From Pisolithus tinctorius (Eukaryota > Basidiomycota > Agaricomycetes > Boletales > Pisolithaceae): a DNA stretch of 64,000 bases. The stretch lies in contig JANFAH010000001.1 of the NCBI GenBank assembly GCA_024663395.1, positions 2,046,001-2,110,000 of the forward strand, read 5' to 3'. The position numbers were made by a program, and so were the translations under genes. Positions 3,242 through 60,622 of this stretch are shown piece after piece (the first letter of the stretch is position 1; every line of letters begins with the position of its first letter). The notes under the pieces are model-generated. The model was not told where the DNA came from and searched no databases. It was given only the letters and a program-made list of their open reading frames with translations.

Positions 3242-3285
3242 TACTATCACTTACCAACTTGTTAGCCTCCCCCACTTGTTGGCCA
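3242..3285 (+). repeat. Left terminal inverted repeat of the KDZ element
   Basis: The 44 bp starting tactatc match the reverse complement of 21939-21982 with four visible mismatches. The shared core is accaacttgttagcctcccc, followed by a tgttggcca end. Similarity stops abruptly on both sides of this stretch, which sets the proposed element end. Confidence 0.8.
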
Positions 3286-3423
3286 GTTTTTCAAAATGAT
3301 GAAATCTTCCCTAACAACAAATTTTCTGTATGGACACAGCAATAAAATACACATAGTGTAGTCACACTTAGTCACAACACATGGGCAGCCTGTGCGCCAA
3401 AACACCAACACTTATATAGACCC

Positions 3424-5585
3424 CGAGACGGGCCCGCCTATAATAGATTAGCCGCTACACATGGACAGGCCCGAGGGACTAAAGTGAGAGCAACATATGT
3501 ACGGGCCCGTAAGTGCATTACCACAACATATGGGAGGGCCCGTGGTGGGTAAGGATGCTGAAACATTTAGACGGGCCCGTGACCAATTAAGTATACTGAG
3601 CTGCTGTAAGACATGGACGGGCCCGTCCTGGTAGGTTACACCCCTGTCTCAACATTAAGGCGGGCCCGCCTATCATAACATGGAGAGGGTCACAGCATAA
3701 GGACGGGCCCGTCTATGATTAGAATACAAAGTTGGCAACATATGGACGGGCCCAGGAGTAATATCATTTATGGTGTCACAACATCTAGACAGGCCCGTTC
3801 ATAATAAGCCGTACCTCTGTCGCAACATAAAGACGGGCCCGTCAGTAATGTCGTTTCATAATGTCACAACATATGGACGGGCCTGTCGACAGTAAGATGT
3901 ACTGCTGTTGAAACATAAAGACGGGCCCGTCACAAGTATCTTTTAATAGAGTCACAACGTAAGGTCGGGCCTGTCAGTAGTATTATGCAACATATGGACG
4001 GGCCCGTCCACAGTAAGGTGTGCCTCTGACGAAACATAAAGACGGGCCCGTCAGTAATCTCATGTATAGCATCACAACATATGGACGGGCCCATCAGTAG
4101 TATTATTTATATCGTCACAGCTATGGGCGGGCCCGGCCCCAGTAAGATGTACCCTGTCGAAACATAAAGGCGGGCCCGTCACTAATATCATTTAATAGAG
4201 TCACAGCATATGGACGGGCCCTTCAGTAGTATTATTTATATCGTCACAACATATGGGCGGGCCCGGCCCCAGTAAGATGTACCCTGTCGAAACATAAAGG
4301 CGGGCCTGTCACTAATATCATTTAATAGAGTCACAACATATGGACGGGCCCTTCAATAGTATTATTTATATCGTCACAACATATGGACGGGCCCTTCAGT
4401 AGTATTATTTATATTGTCACAGCATATGGACGGGCCCGTCCATAGTAAGATGTACTTCGGACGAAACATAAAGACGGGCCCGTCAGTAATCTCATGTATA
4501 GCATCACAACATATGGACGGGCCCTTCAGTAGGATTATTTATATCGTCACAACATATGGGCGGGCCCGGCCCCAGTAAGATGTACCCTGTCGAAACATAA
4601 AGGCGGGCCCGTCACTAATATCATTTAATAGAGTCACAACATATGGATGGGCCCTGCAATAGTATTATTTATATCGTCACAACATGTGGACGGGCCCTTC
4701 AGTAGTATTATTTATATTGTCACAGCATATGGACGGGCCCATCCATAGTAAGATGTACTTCGGACGAAACATAAAGACGGGCCCGTCAGTAATCTCATGT
4801 ATAGCATCACAACATATGGATGGGCCCTTCAGTAGTATTATTTATATCGTCACAACATATGGGCGGGCCCGGCCCCAGTAAGATGTACCCTGTCGAAACA
4901 TAAAGATGGGCCCGTCACTAGTATCATTTAATAGAGTCACAACATATGGACGGGCCCTTCAGTAATACTAATTATATTGTCACAACATATGGACGGGCCC
5001 TTCAGTAGTATCATGTATATCGTCACAACAAATGGACGGGCCCGGCCCCAGTAAGATGTACCCTGTCGAAACATAAAGACGGGCCCTTCAGTTGTATTAT
5101 TTACATTGTCACAGCATATGGACGGGCCCATCCACAGTAAGATGTACCTCTGACGAAACATAAAGACGGGCCTTCAGTAGTATCATGTATATCATCGCAA
5201 CAAATGGACGGGCCCATCTAGCCAGATGCACCCCTGTCAAAACATAAGGACGGGTCCGTGTATGGTATTCTTAGGCAGCAGAAAGGGAGATCCAAGCTAT
5301 CTACATAAGGATGGCCCGTGTAAGGCATTCTCAGGCAGCAGAAAGGGAGATCAAAGGGATCTACATAAGGACGGGCTCATCCATGGTATTCTCAGGCAGC
5401 AGATAAGGGAAAACAAAAACCGGTGTTACAACATAAGACGGGCCGATCCGTCCATCGCAGGATTACAAACCCTTGGCACCGCATAAGGCAGGCCAATCCG
5501 TCGTATCATAGATAGCTCACCGCAAATGGACGGGCCTATCCATATTGGGTTATCCCCCTGTCACAATATAAGACGGGCCCAGGAA
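3424..5585 (+). repeat. Left subterminal GGGCCC array
   Basis: Several dozen copies of a palindromic core, ideally acgggcccgt, recur every ~50-60 bp. Two spacer types alternate: one reads like cacaacatatgg before the core with agtaatatcattt after it, the other like gtcgaaacataaag before the core with a cagtaagatgtacc spacer. Individual cores vary (gggcccttc, gggcccatc, gggcctgtc). Long runs of 2-4 repeats are themselves duplicated (for example 4100-4260 and 4230-4320), as expected of unequal exchange. The ~60-90 aa open frames inside are by-products of the repeat. The likely role is transposase binding or end pairing, by analogy with subterminal repeats of other cut-and-paste elements; that is inference. 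Confidence 0.85.
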
Positions 5586-5999
5586 GACAAGAAATGAAGA
5601 AAGGGGAACCTCTCGCACTATGAAGTATCTGAATTTCCCACTATAAATTGTGTTTCATGTTGGACGATTTGTCTATTCAGTTGGAATCTCAGGCGCTGGT
5701 CTATGTAGCCACGAGCCAGGACTCCGCCATTGGAGCAGACGGGAAACACACAAAACAAATGGCAATGCTATTCAGAACAACGCATAATATTTTTATCTGA
5801 GTCTCTGCTTCATATATGCATCCAGGATTATGGACTTGTACCAGTATTGCCGTCATGCCGTGGGAATCATTCATAGGCGGGATAAAAAGTGCGACATCCG
5901 CGTATCTCATTGTCCGTCTTTCACTTCTGACTCTTCCTCTCTCCAATCACCATCACCACTCTCACCGTCGAATTACCTCATCGTCTCATCATCAGAAAC
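5586..5999 (+). promoter_or_regulatory. Probable promoter region of the Zn2Cys6-like gene
   Basis: This is the ~410 bp between the end of the left array and the ATG at 6000. It has CT-rich and CA-rich stretches (about 5920-5990, many cttc/tcac units) just upstream of the start, as is usual before fungal genes. No specific operator is recognised. Confidence 0.35.
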
Positions 6000-7663
6000 A
6001 TGCCGTCGTTGTCGTCTCACAAGTTCTTCAAGAAATCGCCTGAGCTCGATGCTGCAGCCAACCGCATTCTTCAAATTTATTTCAAGGATATCATGGAAAG
6101 CAGCAAGCTGGGAAAGGCGGACAAGATTGCGAAGTGGAGAGGTGCCATCAAGGTGATAAACGATGAACTAGTGCGTCATAGCCTCATCACACTTTTTCAC
6201 TAACTGATGTATTCAGGACTCTGTATGCGACCTCATCGCTAGGACGGATGAGATTCCGATGACCCTCATCGGCGTCGACATGTTCTTAAAGTGGCATGAA
6301 GACCTCGGCTCGATCGACCACCCGTGGCCTGAGTGGAAGACCGCCCTAGCCCCTTCCAAAACCGACATCGCCAACCACAAGTGGCTCGACATCGTCGAGC
6401 GTCGATACGACTACCACCGGTTGGGCCTCCCTATGCCCTGTGTGGTGCCAACACCAACACCACCCGCTCAAGAGACCGAAATGCCTACGAGCGACAAAGG
6501 AAAACGGAAAGCGACCGAGGTGGAGGTGGAGCAAATGATAGCGGAGGGCTCGCACAGGATGGAGGTGGACGATGAGGGTGAAGAGGAGGTGCCAGAGAAG
6601 GAGGACGAGGAGGAAGAACCAGTACGAGGCAGGCAGAAGCGCCAAGCTGCTGCGAAAACGACGACCCGTCGATCCAGACGTCGATCCCGCGCTACGAAGG
6701 CAACAGCGGAAACCGACGAAGAAGACGACGTTTCCGCTCAAGGCCAATCGAAACGCAAGCCTTGTCCACCGTCGGACAGACTATACGGTCGCGCTGCCTT
6801 AGCTTTCAGAAGGACGCCTTCCCCTGACCCCAAATCCTGCGAGTCGTGCTGCAGACGCAAGGTCCGATGCTACAGGAACCCCAGGAAGTCCTGCTTCCCA
6901 TGCGATGGTCGCAAGATTCGATGCAACCATGCCAAAGGCGGCACTACCGCTCCAACTCGACGGAATCCATCGTGAGCCAGGGGGAAAAAGCGAGCTCGAA
7001 GTCTGTCCCCAACGATGGAGGCCCAAGAACCCCAAAGCCCAGCGGAACGTCCCCAAAAGCGACACGTTTCGATGGCTTCCAAAGCCATCGATACTGGGGT
7101 TGGGCCCTCCAACCAGGGAAAGACGATCCCCGAGGGATCTTCACTCAGTACGTTTCCAATTTCATGTATTTACCGCTGACTCAAATTTTATTCAGAGATT
7201 CGTATTCCCGCATTCAAACGCGGGGATTCCCGCCCAATCCCAGCCGCTGTACGAGCGGATTCGATCGTCGAGGTTGGCCCATCCGTTGCGCAGGAGGTAC
7301 AGGAATCTACGGTAGCAGGTACGTTTAACCACTCCACATCTACACTAAGTATCGTCGTTAACCCTTGTATTCAAAGCAGAAACCCGCCCATCGACAACGA
7401 CGGCACCCGTCCAACCCACAACCGCTGCAACTCCCAGCGCACCGTCACCCGTCTGCGCCCCAATTGCCGATCTTTCGCAAACGTCCAACACAATCGAACA
7501 GCGAATCGAAGATTTGGAACGTCGACTCCGCGATGCTGAGGCCCACTGCCAATACTACGAGGATCGAATGTACGATTTCCAAATACAACAGGACGAGACC
7601 ACGCAGACGCTGGACAGGATGGCGCGCGAGCTGGAGGCTCTGCGTATTCGGGTGTATGGATGA
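6000..7663 (+). CDS. Zn2Cys6-like cluster and coiled-coil protein of the KDZ element
   Basis: Five exons give an open 475-aa frame: 6000-6152, 6217-6971, 7038-7147, 7196-7318, 7377-7663. The N-terminal ~200 residues hold a Trp-rich globular part followed by an acidic Glu/Asp/Lys/Arg-rich stretch. Residues ~259-287 carry six cysteines spaced C-x2-C-x6-C-x7-C-x2-C-x6-C, the spacing of fungal Zn2Cys6 DNA-binding domains. The two halves resemble each other (Cys-Arg-Arg-Lys-Val-Arg-Cys and Cys-Asp-Gly-Arg-Lys-Ile-Arg-Cys). A Pro/Thr/Ala-rich linker follows, and the C-terminal ~55 residues form a clear heptad coiled coil, so it probably dimerises. The TGA at 6973 in the exon-2 frame falls inside the third intron-like gap (6972-7037, gt...ag, 66 nt), whose removal keeps frame. 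A DNA-binding accessory factor or regulator of the element is plausible but unproven. Confidence 0.7.
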
Positions 7664-8926
7664 CCATTGGGTGACGACCTCATCGATCTCTTTGGGCCTC
7701 TGGCAGATGAGACAAGGGCGGATAGGACAGCAGGGTGAATGAGGCCGTCTATAATTTTACTCCTCCGCGGTATATACAATGTTTTTTTACATTTCGCATT
7801 TTAATTGACCACTGCGGCCGCATCATATACTCAACATTTACTTAGAGTGAGAAAAAGACAATGGCTAGACAGCCAACAGAATTGCGAAGGATAATCTCAT
7901 TCTACTAAAACAACCGCTGATGTATCCCGATAGGCGGAAGCTTAGCGAATGCATGGCTTTGCGATATAGCATAGTTAACATGAAGCTTGAAAAATGAGAT
8001 AGCGGGATGGTCTCATTCTGCTAAAACCGGAGGTGATGGAGCCTGATAGACGGAACCCGAATGCGCGGGCTATGCTATTTACAGCGTTCACTTGGGATTT
8101 ACAAAACACGATAACGACTAATAATAGGATAACAATATTTACAGCGTTCACTTGGGAGTTACAAAACAAGATAACGGCTAATATTAGGATAACAATGCAA
8201 AGGAAGATGTCAGCCTGCGAAAACAGCATTCCGCGGATCCCGATAGACGGAACCCTTCCAAATGAGCGGCCTGCGCAATATGCAAGGTTGATATGGACTG
8301 TCTCGACCTGCTAACATGGAATTCGATGGATCCTGATAGACGGAGCCCTTCAAAGTGAGCGGACTGCGTGAGATGCAAGGCTGAGAGCAATTGGTCATCG
8401 GATGCAAATGCAAAGCAATATTCTCATTGCACTAACGTAGGATCCAAGGTATGCCCACAGGTTGGACATGTGCAAACGAGCAGAGTGTGAGATTCGCAAG
8501 GTTCAATTCAGGGAGAAAGTTGCATTCTGCTATTGTAGGAGCCAATGTATTTCGATAGGCGGAAGCTTGGCAAATGAGCGGATAAATATTTCTCAGCAGA
8601 CAGAAATACCACCAAGGGCATTCAGCCAGTAACTAGTGCCCAATTCACCCTCTGCATTGAGCAATAAATATTCTGTTTCCCAACAATGGTTTGTTGCCGT
8701 TCATCTCAGCCCGCGGACGCATGAGCCTTTCAAGACAGACGATATACATACGCATGTCATACCAGACATATCCACAATGGAAATAAAACATGCGAAAGGT
8801 AAATGAATGGGCTAGCTTGCCACTGGGCGTCTCCTGCGAAGTACCCGCTGACCCGCCCATCAGCTACAGGGCGGAATGCAAGGGCGGGGGACGGAAACTG
8901 CAGGTTCACATTGAGCTAACATTTAA
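7664..8926. repeat. Spacer with degenerate tandem repeats
   Basis: No gene is seen between the convergent ends of the Zn2Cys6-like gene and the transposase. From ~7890 to 8610 a degenerate unit of roughly 100-120 bp recurs, marked by ctcattctgctaa and by gat.gat/cctgatagacggaa-type words (for example 7920-7940, 8043-8060, 8237-8252, 8328-8345, 8550-8568). Within it a perfect-looking ~60 bp duplication occurs at 8079-8197, marked by tttacagcgttcacttggga. Both 3' ends of the flanking genes fall here, so it may also contain their polyadenylation signals. Confidence 0.6.
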
Positions 8927-11900
8927 CTACAAATCTTTCTCCAGGACAAACTGAATATCAGTCGCATTCATGGCCTGCCATTTGCGTTTGGCATGCTCGG
9001 CCAACCTCGAATACATCATCCTCTGCCTTGCTGCATAACACCGCACCCCAGGAGCTCCAATAGCGCTGTTTCCCATCTGTATCTTATGCCATTCTTTTGC
9101 TCGAAATCTGAAGAAACTTATAGCCCATTGAAATTCTGATATTACGAGCTCTTCCTCTTCTTCCCAACGATCTTTGACGGATTTTGCTCGCAGCCAATGA
9201 ATGCGATAAACTAATTGAAGCAAATTCATCAACCTCAAAGCACTTTTGAACAGTAAGGTCAACATACATTCAGACATCCAACTCTTTGATTCTGTGTCCC
9301 GCGGGACGTCGATCGACCAAAACCATGGAAGATGGGTTCCACGGTGTTCCTGTGCATTTTGGGAGAAGGCCGCTGTCTGCACAGCCAGGTCTTCTTTATG
9401 AAGCTCTTGATAACGTCCTAAGATATCTGCACCTGCGCCAAGTGCAACCATGGCATCTCTGCATTGATTATAAATCGTGGCCTGTTTTTTTACTGAGACA
9501 TTGATAGCGCGGATCATATCCCAGGCCCGAGTTTTCGTAGAATAGCTCTTAGCTGTGCGCACCACCCCCCGAAAGACAGCCGCCTTGTCTGCCAACGTAA
9601 GACGGAGGCCATGTAGCGCATCATTAGCTTGACCTGTGCGAAGCTTCAGCTCCATTTCTGCAAGATTTTGAAGCCCTCGAGCTCGACATGCGTCAATGCC
9701 AAGAGCGGATGGAAGCGGCAATTTGTCCTGCGGTCCTGCCAGGGTTCCATCTGAGGCGGGCAACTCATCCCCCACATCGTCCAGCCAACCATCATCCGAA
9801 GCATAATCCTGCTCGGAATTTGCGTCAAGAAACGCAGTCGACTGTACGGATTCGCTGGCGGAAGTGTTGGAGCCCGCTTCAAGGTGCAGTTTCAAGTAAA
9901 TCGCGGCATCCGCGATAAAACCCGATTGTTCAGATGAAATGTGATCAGCACGGCGTGCCATAGCCAATTTTTTCAATTCCGATGCCCGTTCCCCGACGTC
10001 CTTTCTGTCCATGTGAAGTGAGGTTATGGCCTCTTCTAAGCGTAAACCGCGTGCTAGCCAACTAGCCGCTCCATGTAGGCTTCCGCTGGGTCTTGGTTCC
10101 TCCAATAACGTTAGTTCAATGGCACGCACTGTTGGTGCTTCTCGTGATATGTAAGTATTTTGCGTTTATCCAAAAAGGCGGACGCCATACCCGCCCTTAA
10201 TTGAACTTCGAAGATGTCCATGGCAGATGGGTCGGTGACGCGATCTTGCAGTGCACGAATCTCTTGCGTTCGCCAGCTGTCTCGCTGCTCTGCAGTCAAG
10301 GCTTCATCTAGCTTTATATATGCCTGCCTCGCCAATGGCGCTGCTGCTCGAGCCACTTTGAGCTTCCGCGATAGGCTATCCGCTTAATCTTGGATGTCAG
10401 AGAGTGCGCTGCAAGTGGATGCTCAGACTAACCAGTCCGAATCATCTTCATGAAGTTGGAATCATTCATCTGGAAATCCAGCAGTTCTTGGCAATGTGGT
10501 GAGGTCATCCCGCATGCAGATGTGGATGCCACGTTAAGGACGGACCACAACGTTTCAATGATTTCTCCGTCTACCCATCTGGCCCCCTTGATGAACAGCG
10601 GGGCATACCGTGCATAACATTCCTTCTTGTGCCCATGCACATGCCATATGCCGATTCCAGGGATAATCCGAAGCGACGACGGGATATCAATCAGCTCACT
10701 TCGACCCACACGCTTCCGCAGATTCGTCATGTAGGAGCAATTAATGTCGTAGAAGCAAACCACTTGTTTGATCCCTTCCATATTGTATCCCAACGCATTT
10801 GCCAAAGAGTAGTCCATGTTCAACTGTCTGCAGCGCCATCAGCGGGTGTCAAAATCGACGATTCAACCTCATACCTTTCTCCTTTTTGGAAGTCAACAAC
10901 ACAATGCGGATAAAAGCATCCGTGCCGTGCGCATGCAGTCGCCCCAATTCCGGTCGCATGAAGCTTTCCCCGGGCTGCGTTTGCCTGACTGATAGCTCTG
11001 TGGTTGTTGCAGGTGGATTTCTGTGCCTGAGCTCAGATCATGTTTTGCACGGGTTGAATGAATTCATACCTCCGCGATATGTGGAGTGGCCATCAAATAG
11101 TCCGCATAGTTTGGATTGGTCACCATATAACCTAGTCCGTCCATCAACTGCACTTGATCTTCGGATTTCCACTCATGCATGTGTTCCGCTTTAAAGTTTC
11201 CGTCCATTACTACTGTGCGGGTGAACCGCCAGCTGGGGAAGGTCAGCATATGAGGATTGAAGTATTGGAGCAGCTTACTGGTCCAAATCCTCATTGGTAT
11301 CAACATTTATTCCAGGCTGGGGGCATGCTGCGCAAAATAATGCCAGTCCCCCTTTCTCTGCTGACCTGGTTGTCCCGCGGAATCCATTCCATTTAAGTAG
11401 CTTGAGGTATCTCCATTTCCGCGCAACCCGTAGAAGCTCACGGTATCTATCCTGATTGACCCTTCAGATATTCCAACACTTGGAACCAAAATACCAAATC
11501 TTACTGGAACTAGGTGTGGAAACACACTGGATGTGATCCGACGCAACTTGCTGTAATAGTTCATACCGGGCGTTCCACATTCCAGGTTGTCCCTCAGGAA
11601 GTCATCCAGAACCGCGAATGTGAATGCGGTGCTTGGCTTCTCGAACGTTGAAGGAAATAGTTTGGCTCTGAGTAACTGTATGTATCGGGCTTCTGCAGTC
11701 TCGCATTCACACCAATTCACTACAATGAAATGAACACCTGTGACATCCACAACGGTGAGATATCTTGACCCCGCTGGAGGACGGAGGTGCTTTGGGTTTT
11801 CTTCGATATCTTCCACATCTTCCCACTCTTGATCATCCATGGGCAGAGGTTCACCTGCTGCTTGCTGGGCTTGCGCGATCGCATGGGGACAGGGTGCTCC

Positions 11901-12578
11901 ACCATGTCCCAGGTGCAACCGAACGCCAGTCTGTGGGTCTTGATGTGAATGTAATTCTGGGCAACCAGCTGATCTCTCACCATATGGAGGGCGGATTCCT
12001 CGTAGAAGTCCCCTGTCCACTGTTGGATCCTGTGGAAAGGCAGACTCTCATGACTCTTCCGGCAACATTCTGTGCAGAATAGGGGCTGATGCAAGCAATC
12101 CGGACATCTGTACACCCTGTCGTTGCCACACCAGGTGCAGTTCCTTGGCTCTGGGGAGGCTTCCAGCTCCAGGAGTATCTTCAAGAACTCCCCCTTCCGT
12201 GGAACCCATTCGCGGATGTAATTGTTCTGCGTCTGACACACCATGTGAAGTCTGCTTTCGGGTTGGCGAACTGCTGCATACCTTTTTCCGCGGTAACATC
12301 AGCTGCTGGACCGGTGGGCTCATGCTTTCATGTCCGTCGAAGGCTGAATCCGCCCATGCATCAAAGTACTTGTGGGAGCGAGACCTTGAATGCTTGGATG
12401 GCGAGGATCGGGGAGAATGGACAGGGGTTGCTGGATCTGGCTGTTTGATCGCGACTTCTACCAATCGCGATCTATATCTACCTCCAGTTCTCCGAGTCTT
12501 GACTTCCAGCTGCTTCACCCGATGGCCCGGGGTAGGACCAATCATTCTCATGCCCTTTTGAGTACTTCCCTTGGCCAT
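8927..12578 (-). CDS. KDZ transposase with CxC2 cysteine cluster
   Basis: Ten exons read by eye give one open frame of 1068 aa: 12578-12282, 12232-11981, 11930-11505, 11451-11279, 11232-11070, 11026-10875, 10827-10433, 10382-10191, 10140-9268, 9210-8927. All introns are GT-AG, 43-57 nt, and the exon sum (3207 nt) is a multiple of three. Residues ~131-160 form the CxC2-type cluster (C131, C134, C142, C145, C152, C155, H160), with a further Cys-Pro-His at 197-199. The RNase H-like core shows Asp-Gly-Asn (D393), Phe-Tyr-Asp-Ile-Asn-Cys (D515) and an acidic Glu pair (E576/E579) before Thr-Leu-Trp, my candidate D-D-E catalytic residues. The C-terminus has the Arg-rich 'WLRA' helix usual in the family. 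It should cut and paste the surrounding element. Unlike its neighbours it shows no premature stop. Confidence 0.93.
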
Positions 12579-13178
12579 CTGGAGGTTGCTGATTTGACAG
12601 TATGAGGTCAGTTGTTAGAAACACTACCGCTAGTGCAAGTCGCTTTATCATTTAGCTCTATTGATGTCGGTACCTTAACACATGTCAGGGCATAAATACA
12701 AACGCAACTACACTGGCCTTGCGCAATGCATGGCACTGCCTTCTTATTACCGCTCAATCCCTGCCCGCACATTCCCTTCCTGCTGCAACATTACCTGGGT
12801 GCTTTGCCTGGATTATGATGGTGAATTTGGATGCTATATTAGCTGATGTAGGTGAAACGAAATGTTCGGTATCAATATAAGTATGGATATGATTGGGCCA
12901 GCCAACTGACAGCCCGGATGCAAACCGGGAGCTAATCCGCCTTTGGGCGGGATCCTGTCAAAGAGATCAGCCCGATTGGATATTTCGGTCGCTTCACGGA
13001 GCTCCCGTCAAAGATATCAGCCTGATTGGATATTTCGGTTGCTTCACGGAGGTCCGAACGAATTCCTTGGCATGACCATACTAGTACTGAAATGCATTGA
13101 GACCAAACAAGGGCACGAAAAAACTTAGCAGCCAACCATCTATTATACACCATTATACATCATACCACATCATACTCC
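12579..13178. promoter_or_regulatory. Divergent intergenic region with a two-copy tandem repeat
   Basis: The region separates the starts of the minus-strand transposase and the plus-strand gene at 13179, so it should hold both promoters. At about 12957-13055 a ~50 bp unit occurs twice in tandem, marked by gattggatatttcggt and cttcacgga. An A/T- and ca-rich stretch (13140-13178) directly precedes the plus-strand ATG. No known operator is recognised. The duplicated unit is a candidate binding site for one of the element's own proteins. Confidence 0.5.
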
Positions 13179-15714
13179 ATGGAGTCCCAGTACGAATCAG
13201 ACACCTGGGATCAGACGGAAAGAGATGATGCTGATGGTGAGCGAGATATAGAACCATCAGATGTGGGGGAAAGGGAGGAAGAAACATTTGAAGTGGAAGA
13301 GTTGGAGATCCTTGGGCGCCGACGCCAGGAATGGAGGCAAGCAGGGAAGAAGAAGAAGCCTGCAGTTCTGCTATCTATATGGGAGGAGATGCAGGGATTG
13401 GACAGGAACAAAGAGTTGAGAGGGAGCAAAGTCCAGACCAAGTGCAAGGTACGCTCTAAAAGTTCTGATTCGGATGCTCACAATTCAAAGCACCCTTGTA
13501 GCTAATACAAGATTGGTTGAAAAAGCCCCTCCGTTCAAAGAAGCCCCGAATTACCCTTAGATCCAGTTACAAATACTCTGTGCGGGCAGTGGTCCGCGAA
13601 TTGTACCAAGAGCAAATACAGGAGAAGCTTGCAAAAATGAAAGTAGAAGAAGGCGATACCCATGGAAGCAAGCAGATCCAACAGTATCAGAATGCATTGA
13701 CAGCTTTTATTCAGGACGACCTGACGGAGGAACAATTGGCTGCAGCTGAAGATATAGCGGAAAGGTGGAATGGGCGGGAAGGCCCTGCGCCAGAGACAAA
13801 AGCAAGGTGCGATTTTATGAGGTCAACTTCCCAGTCTTCAATTTATCCTGGTTCCCAGGAATGCAGCCAAGTATGGGTACAAGTATGTCCGAAACTTTGC
13901 GATGGAGATGTGGAGATATTGCGGAATGCGCATAGTGTGTATGGCTGGGTGGAAAAATGAGGAGGGAACTATACAGGCATGCACGTGAGTCCACCATATT
14001 CTCCTCTAGGCCTAGGTAAGACTCATGCAATGACAGTATGGACTTCAATAACGAAATCGCGGATGGGATCCCCTTCAATGATGTCCGCACACTGGAAGGA
14101 AGCTGGTGAGAGTACCTTGGGGAAACATTTGAGGAACCAGGAACACCGCCCGAGCATGATGGCGAGTCAAGTCCCGAACGTGCTCGGAAAAAGACAGCGG
14201 CCAAAGCAACGAGGACGGGCAAGGTTGACTCCGTGAAATTGGTGAAAAATGCCGGTGGAGAGATTTGGATAGGAGAAATCGCGGGCCTTAGCCGGGACCA
14301 ACTACAAAAAATGGTTCGCGGATTTATGACTGCTCACTACCGTGAGTGGCCAGAGTATTTAGTCTCCTCAATCTCTGACGAGTGCTATCAGGATTAGCAT
14401 GCGGAAATCCCTCGTCAGCAGTGCCGTTCAAGAATTTCGGTCATCATCAAGCGGAAATGATAGCAGCCCGCCATCTTCCTGAAGGATTTACCTTCGACCT
14501 GCGACCCAAGTCACATGTGGACGACAACAGCTACCCAGCTGCTGTCCTTTTGGCGCAAGCGACAGGAAACCCATCCAAATGATGTGTTTGGATTTCAGAA
14601 ATGGATCGATCGATCTGGCGAGCTGCAGCCACCAGTGGATAGAACTTTGGTACCCCTCCAGGTTGTGAGGCAGCGGAAATACCAAAAGACACCTGCCCCC
14701 AAATACAAAAAGAATCCTGGAAGGAAAAATGTCAAGGGCAAGGGTAAAGCGCAGGAAGAGGGAGTGGCGGATGATAGCACGGATGATAGTGCGGATGATA
14801 GCCCAGATGACAGCCTGGATGACAGTTTGGATGATCATGGCGAGGCTGAGGGGAGCAATGTTGGAACAGATGATCCCTCCGCTAAAAAGGTGCGCCATGT
14901 GTGATTTTCATGCATGACAGATCAGCACTAATGCGATTCCGGTCTTCAGGTATCTGGCTGGAGGCAAAACCGTGCCAAGACACCATTCCCTTCTCGTTCC
15001 CGCTCAAATCCCCCACCAGCTGAGCTCTCTGCACCTCCAGCCCATGCAAACACCCCGGTGCATCGTCCACGAAATAAAGCGCTAACTGACGATAATGGGA
15101 GGGAAAGCAACGGCCATGATTCCGATGATGAAGCTGATGAAGACACTTATTTGCCCACCCTATCCAATTCAAAGAAATTGGCAACATCCCTGAATAGTGA
15201 GCTTCCCGCTGTAATTTGTATTCGCAGCAAACCCTGATCTGCACTCAGGGAGCGAGTACACAACTGAACTACAGGACCACTCAGAATACGCAGATGCAGA
15301 TGGATTGGAGAGCATTCCTTTCACTGACCTCCCAACTGAGGAGGGGTCAACGAGCAGAAACAAAGGCGGAAAGCTGAAATCCGCCCTGAAGCGCACGCAC
15401 AAGGCAAGTTCGGCCATGTTGAATCAGTTGTCATAGCTAACAAGTTTGCGCTGTGTGTTAAGTAGGCTCTGTCAGAATCGAGTGAGCCAGACATGAATCG
15501 ATGTCGACCTGGGGCCAAATACTCGTCCAAGTCCAACAATAATGGATCTGTGACCTCCAATGCAGCATCCGCGAATGTGAAACAGGGCGTCCCTGGGAGC
15601 ACCTGGAAGTCACCTCGTGTCAGAAAGGCCCCTGCAAGGCCAGATGCAGATGTTCCATCTCCTGATGCAAAGAGATCACGCAAGCAAACAGGCAGCAATC
15701 AGAAGCAGAAGTAG
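13179..15714 (+). pseudogene. Unknown KDZ-element protein, frame interrupted
   Basis: Coding sequence is clear from 13179 but not fully open. Exon 1 (13179-13448) is acidic. Exon 2 starts at 13502, and later pieces run through ~13814, ~13865-13984, 14037-14340 and 14398 onward. They include a conserved-looking globular part rich in Tyr, Trp and Arg, followed by a His/Glu-rich region. The C-terminal half (after ~14690) is low complexity, Lys/Arg- and Asp/Ser-rich with an Asp-Asp-Ser repeat, ending at 15714. An in-frame TGA at 14107-14109 sits between segments that continue in the same frame, and a one-base frame change is needed near 14510. One intron (15404-15465) uses a GC-AG pair with the classic gcaagt donor. 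I do not recognise the family. Confidence 0.55.
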
Positions 15715-16190
15715 TTGTCGAATCCCTCAAACATTCAGAGCGGAAACCTTTTTTGGAACTCGTGTACGGTCTATAGAGGGCTTAGCCTAGTTTTACACAT
15801 TAGAATACAAGTGTATGGAATGTACAGTAGCTCATGACACCATGGTGGTTGTGAGAGGCGTCTTTGATATCGGAGAGAGGGATAGTTAAGCGGGATGATT
15901 GAGCGGGACAATTGAGCGGAGAGCTGAGCGGGACAGGTCTACGTATTGGCCATGTGGATGCGACTGGTAGCTATCTATGTAGGGAGATATTGCTGCTCAT
16001 CTCCCATGTATTGCTGTTACCCAAAATTTGGCTCCGTCCGCCATTGTCCAACCTTGCTGAACCAAATATGGCCGTGTCCGCCATTGTCCAACCTTGCTTC
16101 CCACGGTGTGAATGATATTCTTGCCATTGTTCCTACAAGTTTAAATCTTGATTGATCATCGAGCTATCAGCGAACCCATCGTCGTCGAAT
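15715..16190 (+). promoter_or_regulatory. Intergenic region between the two unknown plus-strand genes
   Basis: No ORF is supported. At 15890-15940 short gagcggga/tgagcggg words repeat. At 16023-16101 a direct repeat of ~50 bp is marked by gtccgccattgtccaacctt. The ATG at 16191 follows. This probably combines the terminator of the upstream gene and the promoter of the downstream one. Confidence 0.4.
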
Positions 16191-18296
16191 ATGTCCACCG
16201 AACAGTCCCGCCAAGTTCGTTTCCGTCGTCAAGGTGAGGTTGTCTTCATTGTTGGATCCAGCGACCTAAGCCATCCACAGCTAATGTAAGACCAATCGAG
16301 CCAAGGCAATCTAGCTCCCGCGTGAAGCAGTCCAAAAATCTGGAGGAGAGGCTAGTACGACTGCGTGAGTTGTGAGAGCCAACCCCACCACCAATTGTCT
16401 CAAGTGGAAGGGCGGATATGGCGGGGTCGAACATCGATATCGTGGCCGGTGAGTGAACATGATTTCTCTCCAAGCACAAAAACAAAGTTCTTTCGATATA
16501 GATTCATCTGAAAGTTTTCTGGCTCAGTTCCTGCAGGAAAGGGAGCCAACTGCTCTGGCAGAGGTCGGAATCGCAGCCGGTGAGTTGGCACGATTGCCCT
16601 TCAAGCTAACGAAAAAACTAATTTTCTAGTAATGGATCCACACGACAACTTGATGAATCGGTTCCTGAATGAACGGGAACCAACTGCTCCCCCAGCGGAT
16701 GGTATGAACGTGGATCTACTCGAGCAATTGCTGAATGCGCGGGAACCATCGGCACTGCCAGTCACGGACGAGACATTAAACAGGATGGACGGGTCTTCAA
16801 CACCTGCACAAGATGTTACTATGCAGGTTGATTTTCTGGCAGACTTGCAGAATGTGCGGGAACCGTCTCCTCTGCCCATCACCCGCGAATCATCAAATCT
16901 GAGGGACCGATCTCCTCGACCCGATTCTCCAACTAACCTGCTTGCTCAATTGCAGGATATGAGGGAACCAACACCTCCCCCGCGCATTTCAAATGTACCC
17001 GTCGAATCTTTTGACTTGGCAGCGGATGAGGACAATGGCGCAAACCGTTTGACTTTTGGCATGCCCAAACGATCAGAGATGAGGGATCTCTTCGAAGAAA
17101 TATGCAACGGTGAGTATATTTGGTTCTATTCATGTGATCAGGGATATCCATCGGTTATGTAGGTGAACTTCCATCCGAACAGCAATCTCTTCAAATGGAA
17201 CAATGGGGATTGGCACCTGTTCCGCGTTGCGATCAGGGTATGGGCATGAGCTTAATCTGAAACACCGTTGACGTTGATAATTTTAGTCCTGCGCGCCTTA
17301 CATGCCGCGGTATCTCGCTACCGCGGAAACACCGCTCCCAGCGACACGCCGTTCGATCCCACCCTCGATAGGCACCTCGTGCGTGCTGCGAATGCCATTG
17401 CGAGAGAATTGGGCACAGCTGCAAGGGACCAGTATGGTGCAGCGTCTCAGGGCCTTCGACTCGTCAATATGCTCGATTTGATGGAAGTCGTTTGTTATCC
17501 GCGTTCCGCCTTTGAAAATTGTCCGGAGCCATTCATCGCCAGCCAATCACACCCATCTCGCCAGTCTGTGGTAGAGATGGGTATCGTCTACTTGGCGTGC
17601 CGGATCGAGATGGCCTCTGTACATTTGAAGCAGACTGCCGATATCGCGGAATGGCCCGCGCATTGGTTTGCAAACCTAGCAATGGACTTGGTAGGTTTTA
17701 CATCAATTTTTCACAATGTGGGACTGATACATAATTCCTTCAGAATCAGCTTAATAGCTTGATTCTGGTGACGGTGTCGCGTGCCAGTTATACTCCTCCC
17801 CTCCCAGCGTGCTACCATGCGTACCTCAGACACCAAGATGATGAGGTTAGCTTCCGCAAGCAAATGCAGCTAATTCCCCTTAGCGCATTTTGCCTAATCG
17901 ACAATATCAGCGCCATCGTCCCGCATTGGACCCCACACACAGATGATCCCAATTCCGGCTTTGCATTCCCTTGGTGGCTATATCACTCCGAGGAATACGC
18001 AGCGGATTCCCAAAGATTGCAAGGCAAAGGATTGTTTTCCGCAGCCTGGGATTTTTTTAAGGTATGCCGCTTATTCTCGTCGCTGCAAATAGTTGATGAT
18101 GGCCCAGGGCTTATGGCCATTGCCTGAGGCGCCAATCGCAGACCGTCTCGATGGCCATATTGAGGAGCAGGCAAACTACTGCATCGAAAATATTCGGAAA
18201 TATGCCGATGTTGTCAACGGTCGGGGTCGACAAATCGACCATTTCTACGCTAGGTGGTGGGCATTGCGCGGGTTGTTGGGCATGCCGCTTCAATAG
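16191..18296 (+). pseudogene. Repeat-motif protein of the KDZ element, one nonsense codon
   Basis: The first exon is 16191-16233 and the frame resumes at 16281. The later exons (with ends near 16440, 16585, 17110, 17236, 17690, 18060) join in phase to a stop at 18296. The N-terminal half carries at least five spaced copies of an Arg-Glu-Pro-(Thr/Ser)-x-x-Pro motif, each preceded by a Leu-rich amphipathic stretch (Leu-x-Gln-Leu/Phe-Leu). The motif copies fall partly one per exon, which suggests exon duplication. The C-terminal half (from ~17290) is globular, with an Arg-rich helix and Trp-rich segments, and resembles no family I know. A TGA at 16373-16375 interrupts one motif copy exactly where the others have Arg. 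CGA to TGA would explain it. Function unknown; the conserved globular half may be a partner of the transposase or oxygenase. Confidence 0.55.
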
Positions 18297-18635
18297 TTTA
18301 CGTGTTTTTGACTGTGGAGTTGGTTGTATATACATTGCTGTAAATGTTGATCATTTATGAGATGCCGCCCATTCGCATGATGTCTGAACCCCCGCCCATC
18401 CGCGTGATGTCTCACAATCCGCCCATCTGCGTGATGGCCTGAGTAGTTTTACTTTTGTTGCAGTTTATGATGCAAACCCTTTAGCCCTGAGTACCTGCCC
18501 ATTCTATGATGTCTAAGCACCCGCCCATTTGCAAAATCTTGGCAACACCGCCCGTCCGAAGTTCGAGAGCCAGCATATCCTAATAAAATACGAGATCCGC
18601 ATGGCCTACTAAATCTTACATTAAATTTTGCAGCT
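18297..18635. repeat. Short tandem repeats between convergent gene ends
   Basis: Five to six imperfect copies of a ~30 bp unit with the word cgcccatycgcrtgatgtct lie between 18362 and 18560, in the spacer between the 3' ends of the plus-strand repeat-motif gene and the minus-strand TET/JBP gene. The first three copies are adjacent and the rest are dispersed. No gene is present. Confidence 0.6.
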
Positions 18636-19878
18636 TCAAATCAACAGTTCTCCAGTTGCAACTGGTCTAGGTAGTAGGTCGTCCATCCGCGGTGATTGAC
18701 ACATGGGAACGTGCACCGACTGATGTACGTTGGCACGCATGTAGTACGCCAGGCATGCTCTGTCACCGTCTACAGCTCCCACCCCATGCTCCAATGCTGA
18801 ACCTGAAAATGCAATGATGGTCCCTGGGTTGTAGCGCAGCCGCAGATCCAGCGTTGGAATGACAAAGTCCAAGGGCGGGTAGTCGCCCACGGTTACCAGC
18901 ATGTCATACCATGGATCCCGTCCATTGATATCCCTGTGGTAACAAGTTGCCCGATTCACCATCACGGACATGCTGCTATACGTGGAGCTCCATATCGGCA
19001 GTATGGAGCTCATATCCGAATCCGCCCGCTGTTCCGCCTGTTTGCCAAGGCGGATCAACGCTTCCCTGCCGTCTGCATACATTCACGGGTGGATGACATG
19101 CAGGATCGCAGATAACAGGGCATTGGTGTCGGACATTTGGTCGACCCATTCCCTTGTAGAAGTGTTTTCCGTCCTGGATTTGAGCAGCCGTGAGGCTTCC
19201 GGAAAGCCATTTTGGGGCTTCAAGATGGATGAGCGCTTTATTTACAAGGCGAGCAATGATCACTCACCCCACGACCCTGTTGAAACCATGCGGGTGACAG
19301 GTTGATGGCGCCTTTCAACTCGGCATTATCGCGGAAATATGACTTGTCCGTCCGCCATGCCTGTGGGGAAGCCTTTATGCTCTCCCGCAGTGGTTCCCTC
19401 AGAAGATGAAGGCGGTTCCATACGTCGGCCTGCCCATTACACTAAGTCAGTAGAATATGAGATTCTGCATTTCCTTACCCTTCTTTTTGGGCTGAGAGCG
19501 TCCGGCAAATACCATACGCAGATGGTGTTTGAATCGGTCACCAGAATGGACGGCTCAGTCACTTCCGCGTATCTCTCAGCAGCTTCTGCATTGCAGGTTT
19601 TTCCACCCCGATTTTTCCCGACGTTGACTGCGGAAAGATGAAAACTTCCATCGCACCATTATGATGGACGTACTTGGGCGACGATAGGCCTGTGAGATTA
19701 CTGACGATATGCGATCCGCTTCACATAACACTGGAAATGGAATCGATATATCTGGAAGGGCGCGAGGTCCGCTGAATACCTCCTCTTGAAATCTGGCTTT
19801 CATGTATGACGCAATGCAGTCTGTTAGTTCCATTCGCCATCCGTGGGGGATTTTAGATGTGTCTTGCGTAGTATTCAT
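18636..19878 (-). pseudogene. TET/JBP-family 2OG/Fe(II) oxygenase, one nonsense codon
   Basis: Four exons (19878-19674, 19627-19479, 19429-19268, 19217-18636; introns of 46, 49 and 50 nt) give a 365-codon frame. The C-terminal domain has the double-stranded beta-helix signature of fungal TET/JBP proteins: His-Arg-Asp (H266, D268) for iron, a second His in Leu-Glu-His-Gly-Val (H316), and a downstream Arg (R333 in Tyr-Tyr-Met-Arg) that could hold 2-oxoglutarate. Upstream are the helical segments usual for the family, ending in Gly-Arg-Glu-Ala-Leu. TET/JBP enzymes oxidise 5-methylcytosine or thymine in DNA, and fungal ones are often linked to KDZ transposases. Codon 217 is TGA (19085-19083), just before Met-Tyr-Ala-Asp-Gly-Arg and ahead of the catalytic domain; CGA to TGA would explain it. 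An ATG directly follows the stop, so a short domain-only product is imaginable. Otherwise the gene looks complete. Confidence 0.82.
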
Positions 19879-20029
19879 GCTTGGGGTGGATGAGGTCGGA
19901 ATTGTATAGCGGGCGAGCCGCTTGCAGCTTGTTGGAAAATTACGGCATTTCGGGACGCTTGCCTCAATATTTTACTGTGATCCAATCAATATGTTGTGAC
20001 GCTATATGTGCTATTGGTGTTGGACCCGT
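19879..20029. promoter_or_regulatory. Probable promoter of the TET/JBP gene
   Basis: About 150 bp separate the minus-strand ATG at 19878 from the first repeats of the right array. The TET/JBP promoter therefore abuts or includes the array. No specific motif is identified. Confidence 0.35.
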
Positions 20030-21575
20030 CTTATGTTGCGACGGGGGTGGATCTTACTAGACGGACCCGTCCTTGTTTTATGGCGATATAAAAGATATTA
20101 CTGAAGGGCCGTCCATACGTTATGACCATATAAATAATACTGCTGAAGGGCCTGTCCTTATGCTGTGACCAACGGGCCTGTCTTTATGTTGCGACAGGCA
20201 TGCATGTTGCTATTGACGAGCCCGTCCATGTGTTGTGACCTTGTAATTGATATTACTGACGGGCCCATCCTTATGTTGCGACAGGGGCGTATCTTACTAG
20301 ACGGGCCCGTCTATGTGTTTTGACATTGTAAATGATATTATTGACGGGCCCGTCTTTATGTTGCGACAGGCATACGTGTTGCTATTGACGGGCCCGTCCA
20401 TGTGTTGTGACCGCATAATTGATATTATTGACGGGCCCGTCTTTATGTTGCGACAGGCATACGTGTTGCTATTGACGGGCCCGTCCATGTGTTGTGATCG
20501 CGTAATTGATATTACTGACGGGCCCGTCTATGTGTTGTGACACTGTAAATGATATTACTGATGGGCCCGTCCTTATGTTGCGACAGGGGCATATCTTACT
20601 AGACGGGCCCGTCTATGTGTTGTGACATTGTAAATGATATTATTGACGGGCCCGTCCTTATGTTGCGACAGGCATACGTGTCGCTATTGACGGGCCTGTC
20701 CATGTGTTGTGACCGTGTAATTGATATTACTGACGGGCCCGTCCTTATGTTGCGACAGGGGCGTATCTTACTAGACGGGCCCGTCTATGTGTTGTGACGC
20801 TGTAAATGATATTGCTGACGGGCCCGTCTTTATGTTGCGACAGGCATACGTGTTGCTATTGACGGGCCCGTCCATGTGCTGTGACCGTGTAATTGACCTT
20901 GCTGAAAGGCCCGTCTTTATGTTGTGACACGGGTGCATCTTACTAGACGGGCCCGTCCATGTGTTGTGACCCTGTAAATGATATATATTGAAGGGCCCGT
21001 CTTTATGTTGCGACAGGTACATCTTACTATGGATGGGCCCGCCCATGTGTTGTGATGGTATAAATGGTATTACGGAAGGGCCCGTCCATATGTTGTGACG
21101 CTATAAATCACATTACTGACGGGCCCGTCTTTATGTTGCGGCAGTGGTGCATCTTACTAGACGGGCCCGTCTATGTGTTGTGACGCTGTCAATGATATTA
21201 CTGACGGGCCCGTCCTTACATTGCGACAGGCGTACATCTTGCTATGGACGGGCCTGTCTATATGTTGTGACAGGGGTATATTATCCCAAAGACGGGCCCT
21301 TCCATATGTTGCCAACTCTGTAATCTATCATAGAGGGGCCCCTCTTTATGTTGTGACCCTATAAAGCATATGATGGGCAGGCCCGTCCATGTCTTACAGT
21401 AGCTCAGCATACTTACTTGGTCACGGGCCCGTCTATATGTTACAGCATCCTTACCCTCCACAGGCCCTCCCATATGTTGTGGAATTGCGCTTACGGGCCC
21501 GTACACATGTTGCTCTCACTATAGGCCCTCAGGCCTGTCCATGTGTCATGGCTAATCTATTTAGACGGGCCCGTC
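20030..21575 (-). repeat. Right subterminal GGGCCC array
   Basis: This is the inverted counterpart of the left array. It has over twenty copies of gacgggcccgtc-type cores alternating with spacers such as tttatgttgcgacagg and catgtgttgtgacc, the reverse complements of the left spacers. It is more regular than the left array, with whole ~115 bp double units repeated (for example 20340-20520). The outer end (about 21380-21610) aligns with the start of the left array almost base for base, including a shared tatataagtgttgg element. Confidence 0.85.
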
Positions 21576-21938
21576 GCGGGGTCTATATAAGTGTTGGCAT
21601 TTTGGCACGCAGGCTACCTATATGTTGTGACTAAATGGACTACATGGGGTCTAAAATATGCATCCTTAGGTACTGTAAAGTTGAGTGATCTTAATCCATG
21701 AGGGCGTAACAAAGGTTCTCACATACCAGGACTAGCTTACTCATCCTGGATTTTGTTGGGATAGCAAAAACGGCATGACAAGCAGAAGGATCACGCCCGT
21801 GGTGGTCATGCCGACCCATGCCGAAGTGGAGTAGTCTAACTCTGTCGCACGGACAACTATTTTTGCACCGTGCGGGACTTCCAGCGAGATTTCAAATTTT
21901 GGGGTGTGACCATGTGTTACTTTTTGACACTTGTGTGA

Positions 21939-21982
21939 TGGCCAACAGGTAGGGGAGGCTAACAAGTTGGTGAGCGATAGTA
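21939..21982 (-). repeat. Right terminal inverted repeat of the KDZ element
   Basis: This is the reverse complement of 3242-3285, ending in gatagta. It is separated from the right array by ~360 bp of single-copy sequence (21576-21938), against ~140 bp on the left. Confidence 0.8.
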
Positions 21983-26156: not shown

Positions 26157-29100
26157 CTAGGCTCCAATCGTCTGTAGTCACGTGTACTCGACCAATCTGT
26201 ATCCGCTATTACTTTCCAAATGTCTGTATACCGCTGCTGAGCTCTTTGTCGATTCCCACCATTGCCTCGTGTCCTCATCCATTTTCTGCAAGCGTTCGTC
26301 CTCCTTCCGTAAGTGTTCACTGGGGTGTTGCGTGAACAGTCGCTTGTCGAAGTCTCTTAAAAGGCGGATTGTGTCCCGGCCTCGGCTACATGACAATGCC
26401 ACATATGCGTTAAATGGTGTCAGCTGCCCAGTAGGTGGTGTGCTGATGTCGACCATGCAGTGTTCTAGAGTCTGCGCTTGTGCGTGATAATCCGTAAAAG
26501 CATAGGCAGGTGTTATCAGCAACTGCAATCGGGATATTGTTGATCGGTTGCCAATTCCTGTTGTGACGGTGAACGTTCTACAGATAGGCGTCACCGGCAG
26601 TACCCCCGCACGCAATCCTGGTAGAGTCTTGGCCTTGGTACGCTTCATCTCCACGAGCACATACAAAGGTGGGTATTGCAGTTGAATCCTATTGTTCACA
26701 GCGCTATTGGCACACTCCCTTGGGTCAAGCACGATATCAACCACGCGGCCTCGCGCGCCATTTGCCATGTCGATATCGGTTGCGACGTTGAATGTGACCA
26801 TCACATCCATGCCAATGGCAATGTCCACCTCGTCTGACAGTCCTCCACGCTCAAGTCAATTGCGTCCTCGTCCACTTTTTGGTTTGGCAGTGACAGCGAA
26901 TTTCTCTGGCAAGGTGAGTGCCCAACCTCCTATGGTGTCCAGAGCAGGACAGTTGACGAGTGATATACCTTCCATGTTCGCTCGTTCCTTCGCCATCATC
27001 GAATTCCACTCCATCCACACAGCATGACGCGGTGTCACTAACACTGCATCTTTCCAAGGCAATGAACTGAAGTCAGTCGGTGGACATGCTGCACTTTCCA
27101 ACACAAGGCCCCGAAGCATGTTTATATCGTGTTCGGTGCAGCTGCCGTGGCATACGTGATGCAGCAGATCACACCACTCGGCATCGGTGACTCTAACCTG
27201 AGTCTTCAGGCGCACGACAACGTTGAACTGTTCGTAAATACGTCGACCCACAAGTTCCTCATGCATATCCTTTTCCACTTGACACGGCCAAAATAATGGC
27301 GCAGACGCTTTGGTGGCCACCGGCGGGAATTGATGAAAGTCTCCTACCAGAATAACGTTCACCCCCCCGAACGGATGGTCTGTTGACATGGCATCTGTGC
27401 CCGTTCGCGCGCGACATATGATGTTGGACACCTTGGCCAACAAAGCTCGAGAGACCATCGACATTTCGTCAATGATAAGATAGCTTTTGTCTTGCCAGTA
27501 TTCCTCTAGTCTTTTCATTGTTTGAGCTGATTGTTTACCGCCATTCAGTGGTATCATGCCTGTCACCCTGACGTCAGCCTCGGCATCCATCGCTGTGAGT
27601 AACCGTACATATGTTGTGCAATGTCTTCCCATCGATCACTGAGGCAGCGATGCCAGTGTACACCGCTTTCACAAGCATCCCTTGTATACCCCGACGAGCA
27701 AAATTCTCTGTGATGGTTTGAATTGTCCTCGATTTCCCAACACCGCCTTCCCTGGGTATGATCATACGCAATTGATCCGGACACCTTCCTGTGACAAACT
27801 GCTGTAAGTGCCAATCGATAATGTCATACGCTCGCCGTTGATCATCTAACAAATCCTCGACGTTGTTAGGCTCGAGTGACGGCTCCATGGTGGCGAGTTG
27901 CGCAAGCATATAGGCGCTTCCTACTTGGGGGGCTGTCACGCCGTCGTTATCCACCATGTTGCCATGATCCATATCCTGCTCAGCCTGCTCCAACATCTCC
28001 ATCATGCTACCAGGTACACAGTCCAACATGGCTCGCATTGCGACCATCCAATGTTCCAGTTGAGGTACGTCCTCTCCCATAGCCACTCGACAGGAATAAT
28101 TCATTGATCGCTGCATTGTGCCACTTGCAGTGAACACCCCATACTGCAGCGCTATGGCGATAGCCTGCTTAGTGTGCGCCTGCTCTCGTGCAGAAAGTTG
28201 ATCGCGTTTGAAAGTGGCAAGATCAGTCTCTGAGAGACTTGCTGTCCAGTCCTCGGTTTCCGATCTGTCCTCAAAGGAATCATTGACAATGTCTGCGAGT
28301 TGATGATCTCCTACTGGCGAGTGGTGTTGTTGTGTTTCGCCTGGTATTGATGCTGTTTTGCTGGCCGTTTTCGAGTCATAATAGTATTGCAGGCTGGCCA
28401 ACACGCGCGTCTCCCATGGTGTATTGGAGGCCTCCAAACGTTCGAAGGCCTCACTCCATCCCTCGTCGCTGCTCTTCAGACCGGCTCCTATTCGCCATGG
28501 CTTTAACAAGGCCAACATACACGCGCAGTAGAAATCGTAAGTGCTGCTGTCATCGTGGTGGGGCAGCCATGGCCCAACTATTTGGGGCAGGGTATTATGT
28601 CCTTTGGCTCGGCAAACACGGCAGTGTGACTGTGCCTTGGGGTGATCATCATGGTAAGGTGAGCGCTTGTGTGCAGGCTGTCCCTTGGTAGGAGATGTTC
28701 GCTGATTGCAGTTCACATCTGTTGCAGTGTATTGTTCCTCCCATGTATCACACACAAATGCAAGAAGCGATAGATCGTCCAATTCTGCGCCATGTTGGAG
28801 ATAGTCCTGCATTTGGGTGCATGTGTATAGCTCCCCTTGCCGACTGCACAGTAACGTGACGACATCGTTGTTGTCGTCACTGTTTGTGCGGACGTTGTCG
28901 TGACCTGTTGAGGGGTATGAGTACCTGCTTACACACGTGTGTCAGTATGCATTCCATCATGCCACGCTGGTGACAGTTTTGCTGACCTATCTGTGGACGC
29001 CATCAAGAACTCAGGATACAACTCTTTTATTGTGCTGAATAATGGCCCTGTGTACAAAGCCGCATAATTGTGCGATGTAAAGGTGTCACCGTAACCCATG

Positions 29101-60400: not shown

Positions 60401-60622
60401 AGCCAAAGAACGAACATATTGCGCGAATTCGGAGAATGTTTTGGTTTGAATGGAGGAATCGTGTGCGGAGGATGTGACGAAACCTAATTCATGCTCAGGA
60501 TATTGGGATGCGGCGTGGGTAAGGACGTCGAGCAAAGTCTGAGTAGAGGTGCAAGCCACAGAGGCTTTCAAGTCACGGAGAGTAGCCTCAACGGCAACAG
60601 ATGCAACAGCGACGGGAGCCAT
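57491..60622 (-). CDS. NRPS-like quinone synthetase, A-T-TE (atromentin synthetase type)
   Basis: Six exons (60622-59929, 59874-59738, 59684-59449, 59398-58565, 58512-57758, 57696-57491) give 953 aa, the usual length of this family. The adenylation domain (~residues 1-590) shows the A3 motif Leu-Thr-Ser-Gly-Ser-Thr-Gly, then Gly-Met-Thr-Glu-Thr (A5) and Tyr-Arg-Thr-Gly-Asp (A7). The carrier domain follows with the phosphopantetheine serine in Leu-Gly-Gly-Thr-Ser. The thioesterase domain has Gly-Tyr-Ser-Tyr-Gly-Gly, and the C-terminus is typical of AtrA/GreA/InvA-type enzymes. These condense two arylpyruvates (4-hydroxyphenylpyruvate in atromentin synthetase) into a quinone. Polyporic acid- or furanone-type products are possible, because specificity residues were not analysed. 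The start was chosen at 60622, matching the family N-terminus, although the frame is open further up. The aminotransferase usually paired with it is not in the window. Confidence 0.88.

Follow-up and report, generated by a model that had tools for sequence, protein, structure and literature searches.

How would a transposon-borne TET/JBP oxygenase find its own element among all the methylated DNA of its host? The question is raised by a KDZ-type transposon of Pisolithus tinctorius, an ectomycorrhizal mushroom with a genome of 92.5 Mb, within a stretch of 64 kb (C1:2046001-2110000) that we call the window and whose numbering is used throughout. An earlier reading of this DNA without database searches, the sequence-only reading, had described a complete transposon carrying a TET/JBP gene. 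The family to which the element belongs, here family A, suggests an answer open to experiment: it encodes a second protein, of Zn2Cys6-type cysteine spacing, and bears at both ends dozens of CGG palindromes of the type recognized by proteins of this class.

The transposon was delimited by genome searches that allowed up to two mismatches. The first 41 bases of its left end gave 90 matches (72 exact) and the last 40 bases of its right end 50 matches (45 exact), while the reversed patterns used as controls gave none. Perfect 7-bp target-site duplications border all 11 insertions for which both ends were mapped, namely seven family A copies including that of the window, one copy of family C, two of family B and one of family G. 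The ends of the transposon, its 7-bp duplications and its copy number are established.

The sequence-only reading had set the termini further out, at a pair of 44-bp inverted ends enclosing 18.7 kb; the true unit spans 18.3 kb (3350-21651). The 44-bp ends are the termini of a small, unrelated miniature element that hosts the transposon, and a genomic copy of 398 bp with both of these ends and without the insert lies at C9:1427498-1427895. Positions 3242-3349 and 21652-21982 match this copy; with the insert removed and the flanks joined, the resulting 432 bases align to it over their full length at 81%. Two more partial copies of the miniature element occur on C3 and C57. TAAAATA on both sides, taken with the 7-bp duplications of the other copies, therefore indicates that an 18,302-bp transposon inserted into the miniature element. 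That 3242-21982 is a single transposon with 44-bp terminal inverted repeats has in its favor that such ends do exist, but the cargo-free genomic copy, the internal position of the duplications (3343-3349 and 21652-21658) and the 90 and 50 matches to the inner ends leave it virtually no probability, and the element-free C9 copy rules this interval out as the transposon unit. Further copies proved numerous, sharing the corrected ends rather than the 44-bp ones. Flanking the miniature element externally, at 3031 and 22040, is a directly repeated sequence of about 45 bp.

Table 1. Positions of the transposon, its genes and arrays, and of repeat blocks in type B derivatives
Feature	Position	Strand	Basis or remark
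KDZ-type transposon, 18,302 bp	3350..21651		7-bp duplications, genome copies, element-free C9 site
Target-site duplication TAAAATA, left	3343..3349	+	sequence
Target-site duplication TAAAATA, right	21652..21658	+	sequence
Left end, CACATAGTGTAGTC...	3350..3400	+	genome matches
Right end, reverse complement GACCCCATGTAGTCC...	21560..21651	+	imperfect inverted repeat of left end
Outer miniature element, left half	3242..3349	+	first two bases a possible TA target copy
Outer miniature element, right half	21659..21982	+	match to C9 copy
Left array, GACGGGCCCGTC-like palindromes	3430..5600	+	45 [AG]GGCC[CT] sites; 42-44 bp spacing in 37/44 intervals
Open reading frame 1 (ORF1), Zn2Cys6-type cysteine spacing at 6838-6924, one stop	6000..7663	+	exon borders approximate
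KDZ transposase with CxC2, nine exons, 1089 amino acids, open in window copy	8927..12578	-	Pfam, gene model
ORF3, no recognized domain, two stops in window copy	13179..15714	+	matches confined to Pisolithus
ORF4, repeated REP-x-x-P motifs, no recognized domain, one stop	16112..18296	+	matches confined to Pisolithus
TET/JBP dioxygenase, 366 amino acids in open sister C2b; one stop in window copy	18636..19878	-	Pfam, CcTET alignment
Right array, inverted relative to left	19980..21590	-	35 [AG]GGCC[CT] sites within 19980-21600; 42-44 bp spacing in 26/34 intervals
161-bp repeat blocks, type B	L027 1627-3334, 5361-7068; L034+L035 8775-10826, 12853-14399

The transposase carries a KDZ domain (PF18758; 9.6e-45, 153.4 bits against a cut-off of 26.6) and a CxC2 domain (3.4e-24, 85.5 bits against 27), CxC1 staying below its cut-off. 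Its frame is open in the window copy, as had been read; the ten exons and 1068 residues of that reading are replaced by our longer nine-exon model, whose eight introns are all GT-AG. The five gene regions are present in all seven sequenced family A copies, with 84-97% DNA identity across aligned blocks; in copies C12 and C20, ORF3 contains insertions of 0.9 and 1.6 kb, respectively. The two arrays of that reading are likewise confirmed, and the five-gene unit with its arrays is established. The epithet "complete" has to be dropped: read in register with its sisters, the window copy contains in-frame stops in TET (one), ORF3 (two) and ORF4 (one), and a whole-genome protein search located one TGA in its ORF1 stretch. 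This copy is itself decayed; with stops in its accessory genes, it would therefore be mobile only with proteins from other copies.

The protein encoded at 18636-19878 matched Tet_JBP (1.4e-12, 47.6 bits against a cut-off of 34.9, with the window model spliced around its in-frame stop), and profile searches thus recovered all three expected domains, KDZ, CxC2 and Tet_JBP. The open sister copy C2b was aligned to CcTET of Coprinopsis cinerea (7vpn, 7w5p, 8jkk) with an E-value of 7.7e-25, over residues 157-346 only. The HxD, His and Arg residues pointed out earlier hold up in this alignment: the catalytic HRD, second His and Arg line up with those of CcTET and also occur in the window sequence, as do a Gly at +5 and an Asp at +11 after the His. 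CcTET requires these Gly and Asp residues, as reported by Kojima, in whose summary the enzyme is active on both 5-methylcytosine (5mC) and N6-methyladenine (6mA) (PMC12730594).

Among 186 candidate Tet_JBP stretches in the genome, 150 were scored; many are free of stops, and stops are also common. Counts against the transposon ends used 41 of these 150 and are lower bounds: a Tet_JBP match lies inside at least 28 of 36 adjacent left-right end pairs (less than 80 kb apart), the other eight having none among the 41, and for at least 28 of the 50 right ends such a match lies no more than 6 kb inward, 18 of them stop-free in the matched stretch. Together with the five genes of all seven copies, these counts bear out a KDZ transposon with an internal TET/JBP gene. 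Within family A, TET is stop-free in C2a, C2b and C20 (3/7); inserts of 1 base in C2a and 457 bases in C20 leave C2b as the sole copy with an open, uninterrupted frame. The TGA of the window copy was found independently by the whole-genome profile search. The same stop at codon 218 is present in the window, C12 and C53, and is missing from the window's nearest relative, C2b; this pattern suggests that TET may have been lost repeatedly and independently.

The arrays at the two transposon ends consist of CGG-N2-CCG palindromes, about one per 43 bp. CGGGCCCG occurs 19 times in the left array and 19 times in the right, and the 14-kb interior contains no match to CGG-N2-CCG or CGGGCCCG. Inverted arms of the two arrays (3442-3628 and 21375-21561) are 90% identical. 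The half sites are CGG triplets, each with a CpG.

Zn2Cys6 proteins follow the pattern C-x2-C-x6-C-x5-12-C-x2-C-x6-8-C. The form C-x2-C-x6-C-x7-C-x2-C-x6-C was detected once each in six of the seven family A copies, in family C and in family D, and P0124, the ORF1 relative of family G, has the same spacing by eye. No Zn2Cys6-type spacing was detected elsewhere in the window or in 100 shuffled elements, and the pattern is absent from the gene-less family B element. A gene-finder frame for ORF1 that missed the cysteine cluster was overruled by family C homology; the C-terminus looks coiled-coil-like by eye. CGG triplets are described as binding sites of Zn2Cys6 proteins (PMC6080790).

ORF1, ORF3 and ORF4 gave no Pfam match at E<=0.1. 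Their relatives (20, 64 and 47 proteins, respectively) were found in Pisolithus only, by a search needing shared 5-residue words, so that more distant relatives may exist. Structure prediction gave no usable models for ORF3 or ORF4 (mean pLDDT, the predicted local distance difference test, 50.3 and 35.8), and the ORF3 model had no match in the PDB at E<=0.001. The 5' border of ORF4 is either 16112 or 16191.

This unit was compared with further families of elements. In family C, a single element on C18, the five genes recur with unchanged order and strands, at 31-60% protein identity to family A (ORF1, 31-32%). Codon alignments between the two families covered TET, KDZ, ORF3 and ORF4. TET keeps 156 of 353 aligned residues (44%), with 49 of 71 four-fold third positions differing; the corresponding values are 576/967 (60%) and 150/236 for KDZ, 305/692 (44%) and 91/137 for ORF3, and 72/210 (34%) and 27/33 for ORF4. 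With 64-82% of four-fold third positions differing, synonymous sites are near saturation; TET residues are kept despite this, so that long-term selection can be seen between families. Among the family A copies (TET, KDZ, ORF3 and ORF4 compared; C4 omitted for KDZ, ORF3 and ORF4; KDZ and ORF4 taken without their first exons), KDZ displays a synonymous excess at non-CpG sites (13/20 against 0.33 expected, p=0.003), and none was found in ORF3 (9/24) or ORF4 (10/25).

Family G (C21) shares its ends and arrays with family A and encodes the ORF1 relative P0124, and TET occupies the same position in A and C and, judged by end and match positions, in G. The family D element on C50 is more distant: identity is 37-59% for KDZ, 48% for the TET stretch and 26-31% for its ORF3 relative; a cysteine cluster of the same spacing is present, and TET lies on the opposite side of KDZ. 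No transposon ends were found within its 23.9 kb. CGGGCCCG is not among its listed palindromes; CCGG occurs 33 and 36 times in 1.9 and 1.8 kb against 124 times in 13.2 kb, an enrichment of about twofold only.

Type B elements share the left end, have a related right end and keep the arrays, and neither of the two sequenced ones has any of the five genes. This disposed of the idea that they are KDZ elements without TET. Tet_JBP was found inside none of 12 type B end pairs, drawn from 100 of 118 places (41 stretches compared by position, the remaining listed ones by eye). A stretch on C17 combines one type B end and 10 GGGCCY sites with a weak KDZ match and no CGGGCCCG. The type B derivatives also contain two inverted blocks of a 161-bp repeat within their CGG arrays, and one on C58 has an open frame of 1072 amino acids resembling a retrotransposon polyprotein.

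Does the host methylate this DNA? The window was compared with six copies (C2a, C2b, C12, C53, C4 and C20) over the interior, 8136-19900. Transitions reach 0.18-0.23 per site at CpG and 0.013-0.028 at other C/G sites, and A/T sites differ by 0.000-0.005 per region and copy. In the nearest copy, 237 of 275 differences over 11,723 bases are CpG transitions, the rest being 28 other transitions and 10 transversions; in the other five, CpG transitions make up a fraction of 0.50-0.71. No other class contributes as much to the divergence among the copies as CpG decay, and since CpG transitions are expected from deamination of 5mC, this signature points to host methylation. By context, transition rates are 0.184 (ACG), 0.156 (CCG), 0.139 (GCG) and 0.116 (TCG). 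Per site, CpG transitions lie about a hundredfold above A/T-site changes, which is stronger than expected for slow 5mC decay. According to Kojima, hypermutation is undetected in Agaricomycotina (PMC12730594).

Considering these features together, we hypothesize a cut-and-paste KDZ element that combines predicted ORF1-array binding with a TET/JBP enzyme oxidizing host methylation on the element, a reading to which we assign a probability of roughly 0.45. KDZ would excise and insert the element, most likely by cut and paste, leaving 7-bp duplications, and the host would methylate the transposon DNA. Binding of the Zn2Cys6-type ORF1 protein to the CGG-N2-CCG arrays is proposed because the motif consists of inverted CGG half sites, known targets of such proteins. 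TET/JBP would then oxidize 5mC at the arrays or across the element. Acting jointly, the two might pair a targeting protein, comparable to VANC of Arabidopsis, with a TET eraser, and the element would likely escape host silencing. The more demanding version, a complete sequence-targeted demethylation device in which ORF1 reads CGG-N2-CCG and TET/JBP is brought there to oxidize 5mC, strikes us as unlikely. If true, it would be the fungal equivalent of VANC, equipped with an eraser of its own, and its reader would have diverged in step with the array: CGGGCCCG arrays are common to families A, B, C and G, whereas family D has a changed cysteine cluster and, in their place, arrays rich in CCGG.

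Several results weigh against the reading we prefer. Array CpG transitions stand at 0.253 and 0.275, rates that alignment slippage also raises, against 0.18-0.23 in the interior; array CpGs are thus lost at least as quickly as those of the interior, and resident copies give no sign of local protection, which speaks against a strong one. Zn_clus scores of 20.0, 19.2 and 17.0 bits (best E 0.00073) stay below the Pfam cut-off of 21, P0124 reaches 13.7 bits, and neither P0112 nor the window ORF1 model gave a match; family A copy C53 is without the cysteine pattern. TET variation within family A fits no selection, at CpG changes (42/115 synonymous, 0.33 expected) and at non-CpG changes (5/12, 0.36 expected) alike. 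TET stretches with stops are common genome-wide, so TET is not required in cis by every copy.

The unspared CpGs would suit a different role for the arrays, as synapsis sites for the transposase or an accessory protein, on the model of En/Spm-type elements, with ORF1 a transposition cofactor and TET/JBP oxidizing genome-wide without targeting. The retention of ends and arrays in both sequenced gene-less derivatives, as for sites acting in cis in transposition, also fits, and we regard this account as a tentative but serious contender; however, it gives no reason for half sites made of CGG triplets bearing a CpG, or for the association of a Zn2Cys6-spaced protein with TET in families A, C, G and D. 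It is also conceivable, if improbable, that TET/JBP makes a lasting mark (5-hydroxymethylcytosine, 5-formylcytosine or oxidized 6mA) that the transposase or the host reads, methylation not being removed. CcTET is active toward both 5mC and 6mA (PMC12730594) and the transposon enzyme retains its two key residues, and oxidized cytosines are reported to accumulate at transposons of two basidiomycetes (PMC8889193), but neither ORF3 nor ORF4 offers a reader domain, given no Pfam match, poor models and, for ORF3, no PDB match. Finally, the stops in TET of the window and other copies, and the missing selection signal within family A, are what one would expect of a captured passenger without a role in the element. 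We consider this very improbable, as TET is kept in the same place in A, C and G, and at 44% identity between A and C in the face of near-saturated synonymous sites. With its mapped ends, numerous copies, TET alleles both open and broken, and gene-less derivatives that keep the ends and arrays, this single genome makes needs in cis and in trans experimentally separable.

Elsewhere in the window, several open frames at 26178-31701 on the minus strand together make up a Helitron (Helitron_like_N, 6e-36; PIF1 helicase, 9.5e-14). A synthetase resembling non-ribosomal peptide synthetases, with consecutive AMP-binding, phosphopantetheine and thioesterase domains, is encoded at 57687-60790 (-); we presume that it may be of the atromentin pigment type. 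A Phosphoesterase family domain (4e-13) was detected at 63303-63854 (-).

TET-carrying KDZ transposons as such are already known: Kojima (2025) described TET-carrying Kyakuja (KDZ) transposons with 7-bp duplications in Agaricomycetes including Boletales, the duplications of Zisupton and Dileera being 8 bp (PMC12730594). Two Laccaria Kyakuja families have 5'-CA..TG-3' termini and no terminal inverted repeats, which the same source does not give as a definition (PMC12730594). The Pisolithus element resembles Kyakuja in uniting a KDZ transposase with TET/JBP and in its 7-bp duplications. It differs in that it begins with 5'-CA but ends in ..GGGGTC-3' and has imperfect inverted-repeat ends; with termini unlike those of the two Laccaria families, it is therefore filed as KDZ and only Kyakuja-like. 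The earlier suggestion of a new example is narrowed by these published elements. New here are the CGG-N2-CCG arrays at both ends, kept in gene-less derivatives, and the Zn2Cys6 spacing of ORF1. The terms "subterminal", "array", "CpG", "purifying", "zinc" and "Pisolithus" are absent from the main text of Kojima, Table S1 aside (PMC12730594), and in a literature search over titles and the beginnings of abstracts we recognized no paper describing the arrays or the Zn2Cys6 protein.

With CcTET, the transposon TET shares its catalytic region, including HRD, the second His, Arg, the +5 Gly and the +11 Asp. In En/Spm (CACTA) elements, TnpA binds many short subterminal motifs in both orientations, and its protein sites are methylation-sensitive. 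The Pisolithus element shares this layout of numerous short motifs near its ends, in either orientation, but En/Spm belongs to another transposase superfamily, has another duplication length and lacks a TET gene. In Arabidopsis, VANC proteins bind tandem-repeated motifs, with loss of methylation as the outcome (Hosaka 2017, PMC5735166); VANDALs are described by Kojima as plant MuDR elements (PMC12730594). The Pisolithus element is KDZ and not MuDR, has a protein of Zn2Cys6 type and brings its own candidate 5mC oxidase, and the comparison concerns the working principle only. On that level, the proposed likeness lies in a sequence-specific protein encoded by the element itself and in non-coding tandem arrays of the motif that it targets.

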